A stretch of DNA of 64,000 nucleotides, taken from an uncultured Pelagibacteraceae bacterium (GTDB lineage Bacteria > Pseudomonadota > Alphaproteobacteria > Pelagibacterales > Pelagibacteraceae). Shown one piece after another: positions 46,749 through 57,445 of this stretch. The stretch is taken from positions 62,001 to 126,000 of the forward strand of contig CACIHO010000002.1 in the NCBI GenBank assembly GCA_902586485.1. The letters are read 5' to 3'. Within the stretch, counting starts at the first letter, position 1, and each line of letters starts with the position of its first letter. The notes beneath the pieces were generated by a model. It saw only the letters and a list, made by a program, of their open reading frames with translations, had not been told where the DNA came from and searched no databases. Both the position numbers and the translations under genes were made by a program.

Positions 46749-48099
46749 TTTAACAAATCCAGAAATTGCTATTTTAATGATGGTGATATTTCTGTTTGCT
46801 GTATTACTCGGATTTCCTATTGCATTTACTTTAATGGCAATGGGTTTAGGATTTGGGTATTACGCATATTTTGATCCCTCAAGAATGGATCATTTATTAG
46901 ATAATAGGATATTTAATTTATTTGTTTCAAATACCTACTCTGTCATGGATAACCATGTCCTCACCGCCGTACCATTGTTTTTATTTATGGGATATTTAGT
47001 TGAAAGAGCAGGCATAGTTGCAAGATTATTTTATGCCATAAGACTTGCATCTCATTCTCTTCCAGCATCAATGGCAGTTGCTGCCCTAGTTACTTGCACT
47101 TTATTTTCTACAGCAACGGGTATAATTGGAGCAGTTGTGACTTTAATGGGTTTGCTTGCTTGGCCTGCAATGGTCAAAGCTGGTTATGATAAGAAATTTG
47201 CATCAGGAGTAATATGTGCTGGAGGATGTTTAGGAATTTTAATTCCTCCTAGCATTATGCTTATTGTTTATGCAGTAATAGCTCAGTTATCTCCATTAAG
47301 ATTATTTGCAGCAGCAATATTTCCTGGTTTGATGTTAGCAGGTTTATATATTTTATATGCAATTATTTTGGCTTATTTTAATCCATCAGTTGCACCTAAG
47401 CCTCCTAAAGAAGAAATTCCACCAAGATCTGTAATATTAAAAGAAGTTTTGGTTTCATTCTTACCATTATTTTCATTAATTATCTTAGTATTAGGAAGCA
47501 TTCTTGCTGGCTTAGCTACCCCAGCAGAAGCTGCAGGTGTTGGAGCTTTTGGAGCGTTAGTTTTATCTTTCTTTTATAAATCTCTAAAATGGAAAAATTT
47601 TAAAGAGTCAGTATTTCTTACTGCAAAAACTACCGCAATGATTATGTGGTTGTTTATTGGATCTTGGACGTTTGCGTCAGTATTTTCATATTTAGGAGGA
47701 CATGAAGTATTTGAGCATTTTTTTAAATCAATGGATATACAACCTTGGCAATTTTTAGTCATTACACAAATTATAATTTTCTTATTAGGCTGGCCATTAG
47801 AGTGGACAGAAATATTAATTATATTTGTTCCAATATTTTTACCTTTAGTAGAATTTTTTGGAGTTAACCCTTATTTTTTTGCAATGTTAATTGCTTTAAA
47901 TTTACAAACATCATTTTTAACCCCCCCCATGGCCATGTCGGCTTATTACTTAAAAGGTGTGCAATCTAAAAATGTTGAATTAATTGAGGTATTTAAAGGC
48001 ATCATGCCATTCTTAGCGATTGTTATTTTTGGAATGGTTTTAATGTATTTATTTCCAGGTATAGCTTTGTGGTTACCTGATCAATTATTTGCTAACTAA
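46738..48099 (+). CDS. TRAP transporter large permease DctM (TRAP 1)
   Basis: A 453-residue polytopic membrane protein of the usual DctM length. It has the family segments FALAVLLGFPIAFTL-like (FAVLLGFPIAFTLM), LFMGYLVERAG, FSTATGIIGAVVTLMG, GCLGILIPPSIMLIVY and NLQTSFLTPPMAMSAYYL. It contains the Na+-coupled substrate path. The start overlaps dctQ by 11 bases. The amidase gene begins four bases after its stop. Confidence 0.94.
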   Translation: MLFSLTNPEIAILMMVIFLFAVLLGFPIAFTLMAMGLGFGYYAYFDPSRMDHLLDNRIFNLFVSNTYSVMDNHVLTAVPLFLFMGYLVERAGIVARLFYAIRLASHSLPASMAVAALVTCTLFSTATGIIGAVVTLMGLLAWPAMVKAGYDKKFASGVICAGGCLGILIPPSIMLIVYAVIAQLSPLRLFAAAIFPGLMLAGLYILYAIILAYFNPSVAPKPPKEEIPPRSVILKEVLVSFLPLFSLIILVLGSILAGLATPAEAAGVGAFGALVLSFFYKSLKWKNFKESVFLTAKTTAMIMWLFIGSWTFASVFSYLGGHEVFEHFFKSMDIQPWQFLVITQIIIFLLGWPLEWTEILIIFVPIFLPLVEFFGVNPYFFAMLIALNLQTSFLTPPMAMSAYYLKGVQSKNVELIEVFKGIMPFLAIVIFGMVLMYLFPGIALWLPDQLFAN

Positions 48100-49610: not shown

Positions 49611-49707
49611 ATTTAATAATTCTTAAATTTACTACCTCTGATTGTATTATATTCTTTAATAGGAATTTAACTCTAGACTTAAACATACAATTGTAATTTA
49701 ATCTGTG

Positions 49708-49821
49708 CAGTTAATTAACAAAGAAGAGGAGATACAAATGATTAAAGAAAAAAAATCATTGAAGGTTTCTAGATCACCTTCAAGAAGAAAGTTCTTTAAA
49801 ACTGCAGCTGCAACTGGTGTT
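49708..49821 (+). repeat. DctP leader and Tat signal region, copy 2 of duplicated sequence
   Basis: This matches 44892-45000: the same CAGTTAATTAAC start, a GAGGAG ribosome binding site and nearly the same first 28 codons. The spacer between the 12-base start and the ATG is five bases longer here (30 against 25). Confidence 0.75.
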
Positions 49822-50871
49822 GCTGCTGTTGCAGCATCATCTTTATCTGCTCCAGCTGTTGCCAAAGAGAGAATAGAAGCTTCTATGGTAGCTACTTGGC
49901 CAAGAGATTTTCCAGGCCTTGGAACTGGTGCACAAAGACTTGCTCAAAGATTGAGTGATATGAGTGACGGTAGAATTCAAGTTACTTATTATGCTGCTAA
50001 TGAAAGGGTAAAAGCATTTGACTCGTTTGATGAAGTTGCTTCAGGAAATTCTCAAATGTATCATGGTGCTGATTACTACTGGGTTAAAAAACACCCTGCA
50101 TTTGGATATTTTACTGCCGTTCCATTTGGTTTCACATATGCTGAAATGAATGCGTGGTTAAAATTTGCTGGTGGACAAGAGTTGTGGGATGAGTTGACTG
50201 ATGATTTTGGAACACAAAGTTTTGCTGCTGGTAACACTGGAGTGCAAATGGGTGGTTGGTTCAATAAAAAAATTAGATCAGCTAATGATATTAAGGGTTT
50301 AAAAATGCGTATGCCTGGTTTAGGAGGACAAGTACTTGGAAAACTTGGTGGCTCTCCAATTTCACTTCCAGGTGGACAAATCTATGAAAACCTTGTGTCT
50401 GGTGCAATTGATGCAACGGAATGGGTAGGACCTTGGAATGATGAGGCTTTCAAGTTTTATGAAGCAGCCAAGTATTATTACTATCCAGGAATGCACGAAC
50501 CAGGATCAACCCTATGTTGTGGCGTAAATAAATCTTGGTTCACAAGTCTAACTAAGTCAGATCAGTTGATTATAAAAACTGCTTGTGATTGGGCTGATAC
50601 AACTACTATGGCAGAATATAATGCAAAAAATGGAGCAGCATTAGATCGTTTAGTAAACGAAAATGGAGTTAAACTTGAGAAGTTTAACGATAAAGTTTAT
50701 GACGCTTTTGCTAAAGGTGCTGCAGAAGTTTTTGACGAAGTTCAGCAACATAGTGCCCTTGCTCAGAAAGTGCATGCTGCTTTTGTTAAAGGACGAAAAG
50801 AAATAGGTGCTTGGACAAACTTGTCTGACTCACCGTACATTTCTCAAAGAAATAGAGCATTAGGAGTATAA
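49738..50871 (+). CDS. TRAP transporter substrate-binding protein DctP, copy 2 (TakP-like, Tat-exported)
   Basis: A 377-residue periplasmic binding protein. The Tat signal is PSRRKFFKTAAATG, and the mature part starts near AKERIEASM. The ligand-site segment ATEWVGPWNDEAF followed by YYYYPGMHEPGS strongly resembles the TakP/lactate-binding branch, which binds 2-oxo acids or lactate with a cation. The track starts at a GTG (49705). The ATG at 49738 is preceded by AGAAGAGGAG and mirrors copy 1, so it is preferred. It is followed by a terminator. Confidence 0.92.
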   Translation: MIKEKKSLKVSRSPSRRKFFKTAAATGVAAVAASSLSAPAVAKERIEASMVATWPRDFPGLGTGAQRLAQRLSDMSDGRIQVTYYAANERVKAFDSFDEVASGNSQMYHGADYYWVKKHPAFGYFTAVPFGFTYAEMNAWLKFAGGQELWDELTDDFGTQSFAAGNTGVQMGGWFNKKIRSANDIKGLKMRMPGLGGQVLGKLGGSPISLPGGQIYENLVSGAIDATEWVGPWNDEAFKFYEAAKYYYYPGMHEPGSTLCCGVNKSWFTSLTKSDQLIIKTACDWADTTTMAEYNAKNGAALDRLVNENGVKLEKFNDKVYDAFAKGAAEVFDEVQQHSALAQKVHAAFVKGRKEIGAWTNLSDSPYISQRNRALGV

Positions 50872-50890
50872 TTTAATTCTAATTAATACT

Positions 50891-50918
50891 AGAGGGCCCT
50901 TAAATGGGCCCTCTTTTT
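50891..50918 (+). terminator. Rho-independent terminator between dctP and dctQ (TRAP 2)
   Basis: AGAGGGCCC and GGGCCCTCT form a nine-base-pair stem with a six-base loop, followed by TTTTT. It starts 19 bases after the dctP stop and precedes dctQ by 24 bases. The position is the same as in TRAP 1, but the sequence is different. Confidence 0.88.
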
Positions 50919-50942
50919 ATATATCATTAAAAGTTTTGTCAT

Positions 50943-51926
50943 ATGATTGAGAAAAAAAACTTATCTATTTTAATAAGAATATTTAGTTATTCTATTTTAA
51001 CATTAACATTAATTTTTTTAATAAATAATGTTTTAACAGTTTGGTTTGATTGGCCAGGAGTTAAAAAACTTTTTTCTCACTATGAAATATTTGGTTTTAA
51101 AAAATTAAATGAACCTTTAGAGGGACTTTCGATGAGTCTGTCGTATATTCAATTATTATTTTATTTTTTATCTTTTATAGGAGTTATAATGTTTGTTTTA
51201 AAATCTTTAAAACAAACATTACAAACAGATTCAGAAATACTAAAAAAAATAACAGCATACATTATTAGATCTTCATTCTGGGCAGTGTTAATTGTTGGAG
51301 TAGCAGATTTTTTAATCTCATTTATGGTTGTAGAAAAATTGGTTGAGCCAATTTTTGGGGAACAAGTTAAAATTAATTTAGTAAAACCTGCTTTCAGAAT
51401 TTCATATATACATTTCCCACTTATAATAGCTTCTTTTGTAATTGGTTATTTCACAAGATCTGTAGGATTTATTTGGTTAGCAGTTTTAGTAGTTGGAAGT
51501 GAATTCTTGATAGTTGTATCAAGATTTATATTTCAATATGAACAAGCTTTTCAAGGAGATCTTGTTCGTTTTTGGTATGCTGCGCTTTATCTTTTTGCAA
51601 GTGCATATGCATTAATTCACGAAGGTCATGTAAGAGTTGATGTTTTGTATGCTAATTTTAGTGAGAGAAAGAAGGCATGGACGAATGCAATTGGATCTCT
51701 CATTTTAGGCATTCCTTTATGTTTGATAGTTATATTTTTGGGTATGGGTGGTAAAGCTAGTATCATTAATGGTCCAGTAATTTCATTTGAAATTACTCAG
51801 CAAGGTTCGAATGGATTATATTTACTTTATTTAATGGCAGTTTACTTAGCAGTATTTGCAGTAAGTATGTTAACTCAATTCACAAGTTATTTTATGAGTA
51901 GTAGTCACAAACTTTTAAATAATTAA
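50943..51926 (+). CDS. TRAP transporter small permease DctQ, long form (TRAP 2)
   Basis: A 327-residue protein, much longer than a normal DctQ (about 160-200). The DctQ domain proper is in the C-terminal half (YLFASAYALIHEGHVRVDVLY is the hallmark, near residue 225). The first 150 or so residues add about four hydrophobic segments and polar loops with FDWPGVKKLFSHYE. The extended form is found with large TRAP subunits of the mannitol/chloroaromatic type. It is followed three bases later by the extended DctM. Confidence 0.88.
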   Translation: MIEKKNLSILIRIFSYSILTLTLIFLINNVLTVWFDWPGVKKLFSHYEIFGFKKLNEPLEGLSMSLSYIQLLFYFLSFIGVIMFVLKSLKQTLQTDSEILKKITAYIIRSSFWAVLIVGVADFLISFMVVEKLVEPIFGEQVKINLVKPAFRISYIHFPLIIASFVIGYFTRSVGFIWLAVLVVGSEFLIVVSRFIFQYEQAFQGDLVRFWYAALYLFASAYALIHEGHVRVDVLYANFSERKKAWTNAIGSLILGIPLCLIVIFLGMGGKASIINGPVISFEITQQGSNGLYLLYLMAVYLAVFAVSMLTQFTSYFMSSSHKLLNN

Positions 51927-51929
51927 ATA

Positions 51930-54581
51930 ATGGAACATTTATTTTTAGCTTTACTGGTAATTATAATGATTGGAGCTTTGGCATCTGGTTTTCCAGTAGC
52001 TTTTGCACTACCTGGATCAGCGATAATTTCAATAGGACTAGCTGCTTTTTTCGGTTATTTATTTGCAGGAGACCCCAGTGCTTATTTTGCTGTTGATGGG
52101 CCTAAAGAATGGTTAACTGCTGGTATTACTAATTTTAGGAGTAATTATTGGGATGTAGAAACAGACACCTTAATTGCGATCCCATTGTTTATCTTTATGG
52201 GGATAATGTTGCAAAAATCAAAAATTGCAGAAGACCTTTTAGTTACTATGGGACAACTATTTGGACCAATTCCAGGAGGGCTTGGTATTTCTGTTATCTT
52301 TGTAGGTGCATTACTTGCAGCGACAACCGGAATAGTTGGAGCAACAGTAATAGCAATGGGACTAATTTCTTTACCCACAATGTTAAATAATAAATATGAC
52401 AAAAGATTAGCAAGTGGAATTGTTTGTTCCTCTGGTACACTTGGTCAAATTATACCTCCTTCAATTGTCTTAATTATCATTGCTGATCAATTGGCAAGTG
52501 CCGCTGACGTTGCAAATACTATGCGTCAGACTGATTATAAAATTTTAACTGGCGAATTTAATATGCCTGGAGAATTTAGAGTAGGGTCTACTTCAGCTGG
52601 AGATATGTTTTTAGGAGCATTATTACCAGGATTAGTTTTGGTTGGATTGTATATGCTTTACATATTTGTGTATGCAAGATTAAACCCAAAAGCAGCTCCT
52701 CCTGTTCCATTTAAAGGAAATTTTGATTCTAAATTTTGGATCAAAGTTATTTTAGTAATTATTCCACCACTTGCTCTAATCTTTGCAGTTTTAGGATCTA
52801 TACTTATGGGTATTGCTACAGTAAATCAGGCTGGATCAATAGGTGCTATTGGTGCAACAATGATGGCAGGCTATCGATTGCATCAGGGTAAAAAGAACGC
52901 ATACTATCCAATAATAATTGCAATCGTATCTTTAATTCCAATTTATTTTTTATCTAAAAATTATAACTTAAATATTAAAGCTGTTGACACTAGAGATCTA
53001 GGCGCAATATTAATTGCATTATTTTTTACAATTACATTTTTAGCAAGTGTTGTATGGAGTTTTTGGAGAGCATTTAAAATAGATGATGTTTTAAAAGAAG
53101 TTGTTGTAGAAACTTGTGTAACTACCTCAATGGTATTTATAATTCTACTCGGAGCAGCAATGTTAACCTCTGGATTTAGGGCATTTGGAGGTGAAGAGTT
53201 AGTAAGAGACTTTCTTCAAGATTTACCAGGAGGGTTTTGGACTCAGTTCGTTGTTGTAATGATAGTCATCTTTTTATTGGGTTTCTTTCTTGATTTTATT
53301 GAAATAGCTGTAGTTGTCGTTCCTATTATTGCTCCTATATTATTAGCTGAACCCGGTGCGAATGTAAGTGCAATTTGGCTTGGTGTTATGATTGGGGTAA
53401 ATTTACAAACTTCATTTTTAACTCCACCATTTGGATTTGCTTTATTTTATTTAAAAGGAGTAGCTTCAAAACTTGTCACTACTTTAAATATTTGGAAAGG
53501 AGTTGTTCCGTTTATTATTTTACAATTGATAGGTCTTGGAATTGTTGGTTTCTATCCTTCATTGGTTAATTACTTACCAGCGAGAACATATTTAACATCT
53601 AATGTAGCTCCACCACCAATGAATCCAAAACTTCAATATTGCTTACAAGAATATAAATTTGCAATTTATAATAATGAAGAACAAAAAATTACAAATGTAA
53701 TTAAGAATATGCAGAAATTAACTCCAGCAAATCTTCCAGTTGATAAATTAGATATCTTTGAAGAGCATTTTGATAATGCTTTAGGAACTTTTGCTATAGT
53801 TAAAAAATTACAAAAAACTGAGCAAGAATATGATTTATTTACAAAAGATTATAAAGATCTTCATTTCGATGTAAGAAAAATTCAGAAAAAAGTTAGAAAA
53901 ATTGACCAAAAAATAAAAAAGTTAAAAGCTGAAATTAGAAACTTAGACGATGATAATTTATCAGCTAAAAATAAATTAGAATTAAAAATTGAGAATTACG
54001 AGCTAGAAATTAAAGAACTTCAAAATAAAATTCCTGAAAGCTGGAAAACTAAAAATGGAGAGTTTGAAATATTACATAAAGCAAAAAACACAAGAACCAA
54101 GAGATATAGAAAAAACGTTGATGAAGCTTATGAAACTTTAGATCAAATAGTAATGTTTATAAATGATAATGAAAAATTAAAAGAACTTTCGCCAGAAATA
54201 AAAGAATTAAGAAATACTATTGATAATAAAAATTTTGAAAAATCCATTTCAATAATTGATAGTCTTTTTGAAAATCTTGGAGAAATCTCTGGAACAGATG
54301 AATTTGCAAATAAACTTGATGATCTAATTTCTGTCATCGATAATGATGAGATTGATGAGCAGAAGTTAATTGAAACCAGTTCAGAAACTTTTGATCTTTT
54401 CAACTTAGAAGTTTCATGGAGAGATGATGCTAATAAAAATTTATTACCTGAATTAATTAAATACAATGATGTAATTAAACACAATATTGGACTAAGACTT
54501 CAAAGCAGGTTAACTAAAGAACAAGCTAAATTTGTTGCAAGATGTAACTCAGTTCACCGAGATATATCTTTAAACTTTTAA
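51930..54581 (+). CDS. TRAP transporter large permease DctM with C-terminal coiled-coil domain (TRAP 2)
   Basis: An 883-residue protein. Residues 1 to about 560 are a DctM permease (FLFMGIMLQ-type segment as IPLFIFMGIMLQ, AATTGIVGATVIAMG, GTLGQIIPPSIVLII, NLQTSFLTPPFGFALFYL) with extra loops and helices compared with TRAP 1 (for example NTMRQTDYKILTGEFN). From about residue 565 there is a roughly 320-residue charged domain. A coiled coil runs from about residue 629 to 701 (FDVRKIQKKVRKIDQKIKKL and ELKIENYELEIKELQNK), followed by acidic helices. No known domain is recognised there. It is the last gene of the operon. Confidence 0.92.
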   Translation: MEHLFLALLVIIMIGALASGFPVAFALPGSAIISIGLAAFFGYLFAGDPSAYFAVDGPKEWLTAGITNFRSNYWDVETDTLIAIPLFIFMGIMLQKSKIAEDLLVTMGQLFGPIPGGLGISVIFVGALLAATTGIVGATVIAMGLISLPTMLNNKYDKRLASGIVCSSGTLGQIIPPSIVLIIIADQLASAADVANTMRQTDYKILTGEFNMPGEFRVGSTSAGDMFLGALLPGLVLVGLYMLYIFVYARLNPKAAPPVPFKGNFDSKFWIKVILVIIPPLALIFAVLGSILMGIATVNQAGSIGAIGATMMAGYRLHQGKKNAYYPIIIAIVSLIPIYFLSKNYNLNIKAVDTRDLGAILIALFFTITFLASVVWSFWRAFKIDDVLKEVVVETCVTTSMVFIILLGAAMLTSGFRAFGGEELVRDFLQDLPGGFWTQFVVVMIVIFLLGFFLDFIEIAVVVVPIIAPILLAEPGANVSAIWLGVMIGVNLQTSFLTPPFGFALFYLKGVASKLVTTLNIWKGVVPFIILQLIGLGIVGFYPSLVNYLPARTYLTSNVAPPPMNPKLQYCLQEYKFAIYNNEEQKITNVIKNMQKLTPANLPVDKLDIFEEHFDNALGTFAIVKKLQKTEQEYDLFTKDYKDLHFDVRKIQKKVRKIDQKIKKLKAEIRNLDDDNLSAKNKLELKIENYELEIKELQNKIPESWKTKNGEFEILHKAKNTRTKRYRKNVDEAYETLDQIVMFINDNEKLKELSPEIKELRNTIDNKNFEKSISIIDSLFENLGEISGTDEFANKLDDLISVIDNDEIDEQKLIETSSETFDLFNLEVSWRDDANKNLLPELIKYNDVIKHNIGLRLQSRLTKEQAKFVARCNSVHRDISLNF

Positions 54582-54620: not shown

Positions 54621-56204
54621 TTAATATCCTTTAGCATACCCATCTTTTCTAGGATCTGATCCACCCAAGAGATCACCTTGACTTCTATTTATTTTTATTG
54701 CTTGGCCCCCACCGTGTGTACCATCAAAATATTCTACATTATGACCTATTTCTTTGAGTCCATGGAAAATTTCTTTATCAATAGTTTTTTCTAGTTTGTA
54801 AATATTATTAAAATGAAAAGCTCTTGGAAAACTCAAAGCTTTTTGTGGTCCCATTCCAAAATCAATCATATTATTTAAAACATGAACTTGTCCTACTGGT
54901 TGATATTGGCCTCCCATAACACCATAACTTAAAGTTGCTTTGTTGTTTTTATCAATTAGCATACCAGGAATAATAGTATGTAACGGTCTTTTTAAGCCTG
55001 CTATACAGTTTGGATGTCCATTTTCTACTCTGAAATTTGTACCCCTATTATGTAAAAGTATTCCACTTTTATTTGTAGTAATACCTGATCCAAATACATA
55101 ACAAACAGAATTGATAATTGATACACTATTTAAATCTTTATCTACCACTGTTAGATATATCGTTTCTGGATGAGCTGGAATATTTAAGTCACCAACATCA
55201 CTGCATGAATTTAAATTAATTTTATTAAAAATTTCTTCAATATTTTTATCACTTAAAATTTCTTCTAAATTAAAGTTAACAAAATTTGGATCGCCTAAAA
55301 TAGTTTCTTTTACTTTATAAGCTTGTTTTGTAACTTCTGCTTCAAGATGAAATCTTTCTATACTATTTAATTTATAATTTTGAATATTTAGTTTTTCTAA
55401 TAATTTCATCATAATCAATACAGTAACACCAGGACCATTGGGAGGGCATTGATGAATAAAATCACCCTTATAATTAGATTTGATTGTATCTGATCTTATT
55501 GTACTCTGTTTTGAAAAATCCTCAAAAGTATGTACACCTCCTAATTCATTTAAAGTTTCAATTATATCTTTTGCAATTTCTCCTTCATAAAATTCTTTAC
55601 TTCCTTTTTTGCTAATTGCTTCAAGTGTTTCTCCTAAAGCAATATTTTTCATTAATTCATTTTCTTGATAAGTACGACCATCTTTCAAAAAAATTTTTTT
55701 TGAACTTTCATTACCATTGATTTTATTCAAACTATTTTTCCAAGCATTTGATACAACTTTTGTAACTCTATGACCATTCTTTGCAATATCAATTGCACCC
55801 AAAAATAATTGTTCAAAATCTAGCTTACCAAATTCCTTATGAATTTTTTCCCAAGCGTTAAGTGCACCAGGAATTGTGACTGAATGTGGACTAGTTAATC
55901 CAATTTTATCAATATTCTTATCCTTAAAAAAATTATAATTTAATTTTTCAGGCGCTAAACCTGATCCATTAAAAGACACAGCATCCTTGTTCTCCATTTT
56001 AACTATTGCAAAACAGTCGCCACCAATACTCGTTGCATTAGGCTCTACTACAGATAAAACAATCGAAGCAGCAACTGAAGCATCCACAGCATTTCCACCC
56101 ATTTTGAGTATTTTTAATGCTTCCTCTGTAGCTAAAGGATGTGAAGTTGCAGCCATTGCATTTGAAGAGCGTGCATCTTTATCTTTTGTTGACTGATTAT
56201 TCAT
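54621..56204 (-). CDS. ggt: Gamma-glutamyltransferase (cytosolic type)
   Basis: A 527-residue gamma-glutamyltranspeptidase-family Ntn hydrolase. MGGNAVDASVAASIVLSVVEP and NSVCYVFGSG are conserved. The expected catalytic Thr begins the small subunit in the segment TIYLTVVDKDLNSV, and GGQYQPVGQVHVL and DGTHGGGQAI are also typical. There is no signal peptide, unlike classical GGT, so the enzyme is probably cytosolic. It could split gamma-glutamyl compounds imported by the neighbouring carriers. It is divergent from the MFS gene with a 29-base gap. Confidence 0.9.
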   Translation of the reverse strand: MNNQSTKDKDARSSNAMAATSHPLATEEALKILKMGGNAVDASVAASIVLSVVEPNATSIGGDCFAIVKMENKDAVSFNGSGLAPEKLNYNFFKDKNIDKIGLTSPHSVTIPGALNAWEKIHKEFGKLDFEQLFLGAIDIAKNGHRVTKVVSNAWKNSLNKINGNESSKKIFLKDGRTYQENELMKNIALGETLEAISKKGSKEFYEGEIAKDIIETLNELGGVHTFEDFSKQSTIRSDTIKSNYKGDFIHQCPPNGPGVTVLIMMKLLEKLNIQNYKLNSIERFHLEAEVTKQAYKVKETILGDPNFVNFNLEEILSDKNIEEIFNKINLNSCSDVGDLNIPAHPETIYLTVVDKDLNSVSIINSVCYVFGSGITTNKSGILLHNRGTNFRVENGHPNCIAGLKRPLHTIIPGMLIDKNNKATLSYGVMGGQYQPVGQVHVLNNMIDFGMGPQKALSFPRAFHFNNIYKLEKTIDKEIFHGLKEIGHNVEYFDGTHGGGQAIKINRSQGDLLGGSDPRKDGYAKGY

Positions 56205-56233
56205 AGTACAGATTAATTCTCAAAAATTTATAA

Positions 56234-57445
56234 ATGATTACTAAAGTAAATAAAAGCATTATCATATTCTGTATTTTTGCCTTTGGTTTTTTATTATCTA
56301 ATTTGGTAAGATCCATAACAGCAACATTAACACCTGTCCTCACATATGAATTCGATTTAACAGCTGGAAATTTAGGGCTATTAGCAGGAGGTTATTTTAT
56401 AGGTTTTTCAATAATGCAAGTTCCAATAGGACTACTCTTGGATAAATTTGGGCCAAAAAAAGTTGTTGGATATTTTTTAATTATAGCATTAGTGGGAACG
56501 ATTTCATTTGCATTAGCAAAAAGCTTCTCTGGATTACTTGTTTCTAGAATTTTTATCGGTATTGGTGTGAGTGCTTGTATGATGGGACCACTGACTGGTT
56601 ACAGAGTTTGGTTTGCTGAAAAGTATCAACAGAGAGCAAATTCTTGGATGTTAATGGTAGCAAATATAGGCTTTGTCTCTTCGACTTTACCTGTTCAAAT
56701 TTTATTACCTTACATAGGCTGGAGATGGATTTTTATATTAATAGCTATACTGATCCTAATAAGTATTACTCTAATATTCTTATTTACACCTAATTGGGAG
56801 CAGACAGAAAATTCTAAAATTGATGCAGAAAAAAAAGGCCTAGCTGAAATCTGGAAGAATAAGTTTTTTATAAGTATGGTCCCATTAGCATTTATTAATT
56901 ATGGTGGTATCCAAGCAATTCAAACGCTTTGGGCTGGACCTTGGATGTTAAATATAACTGGATATTCACCATTTCAAAGTGCTACAGGGTTATTTTGGAT
57001 CAATGTAACCATGCTGGCATCATACTTTTTATGGGGCTATATTTTGCCTAAACTTTCTGATTACGGCATAAGCAGTATCAAATTAATTAAATTTGGACTG
57101 CCCATAAGCTACTTTGTTTTTTTTCTGATAATATTCCTTGGGACTAAGGCTGGAGCATTATTATTTGCAATATATATTATGACTTCAATAGTGATTTCTC
57201 TTACACAACCAGCAATAGCTTTAAATTTTTCACAAAGTCTTGCAGGCAAATCACTCACTTCTTACAATGTATTTATTCATTCAGGGACATTTTTTATGCA
57301 ATGGGGAATTGGATTATTTATAGACTTATTTAATTCAAAAGGATTTGATATTTTAAGTAGTTATAGAATTTCTTTTTCGATTTTTTTAATTCTTTGTATA
57401 TTAAGTTATATTTTTTTCATTTATTTAAATAAAAATAATGATTAA
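56234..57445 (+). CDS. MFS transporter
   Basis: A 403-residue major facilitator superfamily carrier with 12 predicted helices. The MFS motif between helices 2 and 3 reads GLLLDKFGPKKVVGYFL. Helix 4 holds SRIFIGIGVSACMMGPLTGYR. A larger cytoplasmic loop lies in the centre (TPNWEQTENSKIDAEKKG). The substrate is not known. It is divergent from the GGT gene, which suggests they may share substrate or control. It overlaps the alpha/beta hydrolase gene by eight bases. Confidence 0.9.
   Translation: MITKVNKSIIIFCIFAFGFLLSNLVRSITATLTPVLTYEFDLTAGNLGLLAGGYFIGFSIMQVPIGLLLDKFGPKKVVGYFLIIALVGTISFALAKSFSGLLVSRIFIGIGVSACMMGPLTGYRVWFAEKYQQRANSWMLMVANIGFVSSTLPVQILLPYIGWRWIFILIAILILISITLIFLFTPNWEQTENSKIDAEKKGLAEIWKNKFFISMVPLAFINYGGIQAIQTLWAGPWMLNITGYSPFQSATGLFWINVTMLASYFLWGYILPKLSDYGISSIKLIKFGLPISYFVFFLIIFLGTKAGALLFAIYIMTSIVISLTQPAIALNFSQSLAGKSLTSYNVFIHSGTFFMQWGIGLFIDLFNSKGFDILSSYRISFSIFLILCILSYIFFIYLNKNND

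Follow-up and report, generated by a model that had tools for sequence, protein, structure and literature searches.

Among TRAP transporters (TC 2.A.56), SiaPQM has solved structures with fused (H. influenzae) and unfused (P. profundum) membrane subunits (7qe5, 8thi, and 7qha). The cryo-EM structure of PpSiaQM revealed an M subunit with 12 transmembrane segments and an N-out, C-out orientation, in which TM10-12 are part of the transport (elevator) half (PMC9971032). In TakPQM, the alpha-keto acid TRAP of Rhodobacter sphaeroides (2hzk), the binding protein TakP is a helix-swapped dimer, the Arg177 and Tyr100 residues of which act in pyruvate binding (PMC1839085). Enlarged TRAP systems have been described as DctQM fusions, in which the two subunits are joined by one extra helix (PMC5812351). 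The locus in this study resembles these fusions in that the architecture of the membrane subunits varies, whereas its Q and M subunits are separate, each with a new domain of its own.

The window, the whole stretch of 64,000 nucleotides analysed, derives from an AT-rich genome of Pelagibacteraceae (SAR11 group), the close relatives of which carry Pelagibacteraceae labels and comprise single-cell genomes and MAGs. All of the parts of a TRAP transporter (DctP, DctQ, and DctM) were found in the operon order P-Q-M at positions 49705-54581:

49705..50871 (start codon uncertain), + strand: DctP-type substrate-binding protein, TakP-like, with a Tat signal (PF03480, E 3.7e-49)
50943..51458, + strand: N-terminal extension of DctQ, approximately residues 1-172, probably four transmembrane helices; conserved, with no family match
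51459..51926, + strand: DctQ core (small permease domain; PF04290, residues 188-309)
51930..53585, + strand: DctM permease, residues 1-552 (PF06808; PDB matches to TRAP QM)
53586..54581, + strand: C-terminal tail of DctM, residues 553-883 and the stop codon; kept in all tailed orthologues, with no known domain

The dctM gene (51930-54581, + strand) is a single ORF of 883 amino acids with an ATG start and an unbroken frame. PF06808 (Pfam DctM) matched three segments that together span the permease (E 1.1e-59, above the cut-off), and the PDB matches of the permease were TRAP QM structures (9pym, 8thi, 7qe5, and 7qha). Although the M subunit of SiaPQM is homologous over both repeats, the M chain of the solved structures stops, without a periplasmic tail, at the position aligned to residue 551 of DctM, and, therefore, the extra part begins at approximately residue 553 (53586). 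An earlier note on this DNA had proposed an extra domain of approximately 320 residues, starting at 53622, after a complete DctM permease: the extension is real, lies in one ORF, and is under selection, while its start is 36 bases earlier and its length is 331 residues. The DctQ core and a separate binding protein are also shared with SiaPQM, in which, however, DctQ is short or fused and M lacks an insertion bearing two hydrophobic segments (residues ~320-380). Since tail-less relatives of DctM also aligned across this insertion, it belongs to the wider DctM family. DctQ and DctM are two separate ORFs (50943-51926 and 51930-54581), and the system is thus not a DctQM fusion. A second, ordinary DctM (46771-48090; ORF of 453 amino acids; ~34-41% identical, depending on the stretch) is located just upstream of an amidase gene, so that two TRAP systems lie close together.

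Among 101 genomes sampled from the genus and order, the tail was present in 23, all belonging to the same genus, and every DctM orthologue of the genus that reached residue 564 (21/21) ran on in frame into the tail. Among close relatives, dN/dS was 0.084-0.10 for the tail versus 0.015-0.044 for the permease, and the ends of the tail were the most constrained (0.046 for residues 553-600 and 0.048 for residues 831-883). Since all 21 orthologues keep the tail, with dN/dS of ~0.09, it is not a product of decay and is under purifying selection; neither absence from relatives nor relaxed selection, which the earlier note had named as grounds against its proposal, was found. In one relative (L048, genome G044), the dctM match in the permease started at query residue 127 in an ORF of 778 amino acids, its N-terminal part being missing or frame-broken through either assembly error or decay.

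When 385 evenly drawn alphaproteobacterial genomes were searched with a tail profile, matches were found in 31 genomes from 24 genera, all in ORFs of 838-960 amino acids; therefore, no free-standing tail was seen in this class sample. All matches of a phylum-wide search were within the same class (399 genomes; the share outside the class is not given), and plasmid searches with two tails gave no match. Tailed relatives include genomes of up to 5.6 Mb, which weakens the previous argument that such an extension is costly in a small genome. A permease-only search was also performed against 372 alphaproteobacterial genomes, with identity calculated over all 563 query residues. ORFs with identity of at least 57% were 838-960 amino acids long and tailed, whereas full-length permeases with identity of 52% or less ended at residue ~551-558 and were tail-less; the sole exception was G107 (65% identical), the DctM of which is cut by the contig end. 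The tail-less alphaproteobacterial relatives (mostly 520-600 amino acids) showed 44-52% identity along almost the entire permease, the insertion included, and were accompanied by a TakP-like DctP. In a permease-only tree, a single branch with 100/100 support separated tailed from tail-less sequences, and, as the tree program warned, some long branches meet there; the ORF lengths are independent of the tree. One gain of the tail, with tailed DctMs as one clade, fits these data. A 912-amino acid ORF in genome G187 was rejected as a tailed DctM because it was an upstream read-through, and Ruegeria SPO0591-0593, considered as a possible tailed system, was a DHPS transporter beside other genes.

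DctQ consists of 327 amino acids, of which PF04290 recognised residues 188-309 only (E 5.8e-11, 42.9 bits with a cut-off of 28.3). The extension had no match in Pfam, NCBIfam, or PDB, and a duplicated DctQ core was ruled out as its source (hhalign probability of 1%). It was conserved among 26 aligned DctQ sequences, in which columns of R, F, W, G, D, and E showed little or no variation; the charged residues D122, E131, and R109 were invariant, in or beside predicted helices, and the extension was found only with tailed DctM. At the loci of tail-less members of this DctM family, all 16 DctQ sequences matched only from residue 157 onward, namely, by the core, in ORFs of 186-243 amino acids (15/16; the remaining one was in a longer read-through frame). 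Furthermore, the extension profile was found in 28 and the tail in 27 of the 372 genomes, and these genomes were the same except for three contig-end cases: DctQ is truncated in G209, in which the tail is present, and DctM is truncated in G107 and G136, in which the extension is present. This co-distribution, which was absent from the earlier note, suggests that the tail and DctQ extension function together; since they share one operon and one origin, it does not prove joint function, and may reflect common descent only. We read the tailed, Q-extended system as a putative TRAP subclass with both membrane subunits enlarged. No description of such a DctM tail or DctQ extension was found in the open-access literature, to which the search was confined, and these two unannotated domains deserve family entries.

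The tail was divided into the following elements:

53607..53642, + strand: exit linker APPPMNPKLQYC, proline-rich, ending in the invariant C571 (alignment of 43 tails)
53814..54032, + strand: antiparallel coiled-coil hairpin, residues 629-701 (periodicity and AlphaFold helices)
54039..54464, + strand: helical region, residues 704-845; W705, W830, and R831 are invariant (both AlphaFold models and invariance)
54486..54578, + strand: C-terminal block, residues 853-883, G-x-R-x-Q ... C872 ... H-R-D-I-S-L-N-F (conservation and dN/dS)

The tail is helical and charged, with a near-balanced composition overall (54 K/R vs 60 D/E); the "acidic helices" proposed previously hold only locally. P561, P562, N565, L568, and C571 of the exit linker were invariant in 43/43 tails. 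The coiled coil previously assigned to residues 629-701 was supported by a hydrophobic period of 3.5 residues at 640-671 (z 3.5 vs shuffles), while no such period was observed in the second strand (677-700) taken alone (z 0.2); the two AlphaFold helices (604-671 and 677-699; local pLDDT of ~80-93) indicate an antiparallel hairpin, which was shorter by 21 residues in one lineage (L211). Helices past the hairpin spanned residues 704-858, with local pLDDT of 75-88 at ~741-840 in the full-length model. In the C-terminal block, G854, Q858, C872, and F883 were found in 43/43 tails, L881 in 42/43, and H876 and D878 in 41/43, and the two cysteines and last 30 residues were the most conserved elements of the tail. 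The AlphaFold alignments were shallow (22 near-identical sequences, including 21 SAR11 relatives) and mean pLDDT was low (56 for the tail and 41 for the whole DctM); local confidence was confined to the hairpin and to a part of the helical region.

The absence of a recognisable domain, as reported previously, held in all of the searches performed. The tail gave nothing at the curated cut-offs of Pfam and NCBIfam, including catalytic domains and peptidoglycan-binding or other known motifs, and no Pfam family exceeded the cut-off when 21 divergent homologues were each scanned alone. The earlier note had also suggested that the tail might link transporters together or hold an enzyme, and for the latter no catalytic-domain match was obtained. 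Foldseek found no match at E of 0.001 or less for either AlphaFold model, only assorted coiled coils, and the tail profile had no acceptable match in PDB; the weak matches, such as influenza hemagglutinin (E of ~0.002-0.5), were coiled-coil background. An internal repeat was also ruled out (probability of 4%).

Regarding the side of the membrane, both termini of SiaM are periplasmic (PMC9971032), and the topology parity with SiaM would be kept because the insertion at residues ~320-380 has two hydrophobic segments. The orientation of DctM is read from SiaM, its own hydropathy and the AlphaFold models being too weak to decide it. The 43 tails (14,267 residues), which include divergent homologues with 19-33% identity to the tail of the window, contained 86 cysteines: exactly two per tail, and always C571 and C872. 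ParC proteins from the same loci contained 6.0 cysteines per 1000 residues; given that the permease, too, has few cysteines, the lack of additional ones in the tail carries less weight than the invariant pair. Among 12 tailed genomes, DsbB was detected in 10, that of the window being one of them, and not detected in the other two. The location of the SiaM termini and the two-cysteine pattern together suggest that the tail is most likely periplasmic and probably closed by a C571-C872 disulfide; a role in sensing the cytosol, which the earlier note had considered, is thus unlikely and probably wrong. Taken alone, the view that the tail is a conserved domain on the periplasmic side, marking a TRAP subclass, is very likely.

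The nearest solved relatives of DctP were a ketoacid-binding protein (7ug8; 1.2e-74) and TakP (2hzk; 5.5e-70). The TakP ligand residues Y100, R177, E214, and W215 all aligned to identical residues in DctP, and the alignment included the long C-terminal region, extending to TakP residue 352. Judging from these residues, a 2-oxo acid is the likeliest substrate class of the transporter. DctP also has a Tat-type signal (SRRKFFK), and, thus, may be exported in a folded state.

The operon is located between the genes for arginyltransferase and parC in several families, a position consistent with prolonged vertical descent and uninformative about the substrate. In many alphaproteobacterial families, a gene of ~740-750 amino acids adjoined the tailed TRAP operon (L194-L198, L202, L203, L207, and L209), often together with arginyltransferase or BioY; it was parC in the four scanned. 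This parC-side placement is unusually stable for a transporter operon. Downstream of dctM (54621-57445), GGT and MFS genes are present in the window, and this region varies among SAR11 relatives, being occupied by MFS alone or by ketopantoate-reductase-like and acyl-CoA-ligase genes with GGT. In a comparison with the closest sampled genome (G022, locus L034), nucleotide identity decreased from ~0.90-0.98 to ~0.83-0.93 at codon 541 of dctM, namely, at the permease-tail border, and the GGT gene found downstream of dctM in the window is missing from G022; recombination inside dctM near codon 541 is possible.

Based on these results, we tentatively propose a TRAP subclass in which a periplasmic platform couples a TakP-like protein to the elevator, a reading that is plausible but, taken as a whole, stops short of probable. 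The cargo that the TakP-like protein would hand over to the enlarged DctQ-DctM pair is expected to be a small carboxylate and probably a 2-oxo acid. The tail would exit on the periplasmic side past the final helix, itself part of the moving (elevator) half, and fold as a helical arm, its ends joined by the C571-C872 disulfide and its hairpin projecting. This arm may sit near the docking place of the binding protein on the scaffold half and, together with the enlarged DctQ, may form a platform for holding or orienting the binding protein; the platform would couple docking and opening of the binding protein to the elevator stroke, the DctQ extension serving as its fixed partner. The docking or coupling role of the tail is one that we infer, and the TakP-like binding proteins of tail-less DctM relatives (42-53% identical) count against it because such proteins need no tail. 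It is doubtful, but conceivable, that the disulfide-closed arm and DctQ domain keep the binding protein captured, with its opening mechanically linked to the elevator stroke; a captured binding protein would then replace the usual free-diffusing one.

The tail may instead be an assembly module, in which at least two QM units pair via their arms and enlarged DctQ subunits into a dimeric transporter matching a dimeric TakP-type protein. Coiled-coil hairpins are common pairing elements, TakP is a helix-swapped dimer (PMC1839085), and the approximately four transmembrane helices brought by the enlarged DctQ could form an interface; however, a single-chain antiparallel hairpin is already satisfied internally, and tail-less relatives with TakP-like binding proteins do without the tail, making this unlikely. 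A tethering role, in which the tail would fix the transporter to some other part of the envelope (peptidoglycan, a protein of the outer membrane, or an enzyme of the periplasm), would suit the probable periplasmic location, the long helical arm, and the strongly conserved C-terminal tip (HRDISLNF), which could be a binding site. We consider this to be quite unlikely because the tail has no peptidoglycan-binding or other known motif and no enzyme gene is consistently found beside the operon: several families have parC and arginyltransferase there, and Pelagibacter has GGT, MFS, or acyl-CoA ligase. It is highly improbable that the tail senses redox state or a ligand and regulates transport by gating it through C571-C872 or the C-terminal block: these are its most conserved elements, but an invariant pair with no cysteines elsewhere is what a structural disulfide usually shows, and Foldseek and Pfam found no known sensor fold. 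Similarly, a cytoplasmic domain is highly improbable: the high charge and coiled coil frequent in cytosolic domains and a hydropathy segment count (12 at one threshold) that is not decisive alone are set against the homology to a C-out M subunit, the two-segment middle insertion, which would keep parity, and the strict two-cysteine pattern.

Returning to the platform proposed above, the way in which TRAP transporters pass cargo from the binding protein to the elevator is still debated as a question, and a conserved, probably periplasmic arm on the moving half would offer a direct handle on it. The putative subclass is found in Pelagibacteraceae of the SAR11 group and in many other alphaproteobacterial families, and, given this broad occurrence, probably matters for the marine uptake of small organic acids.
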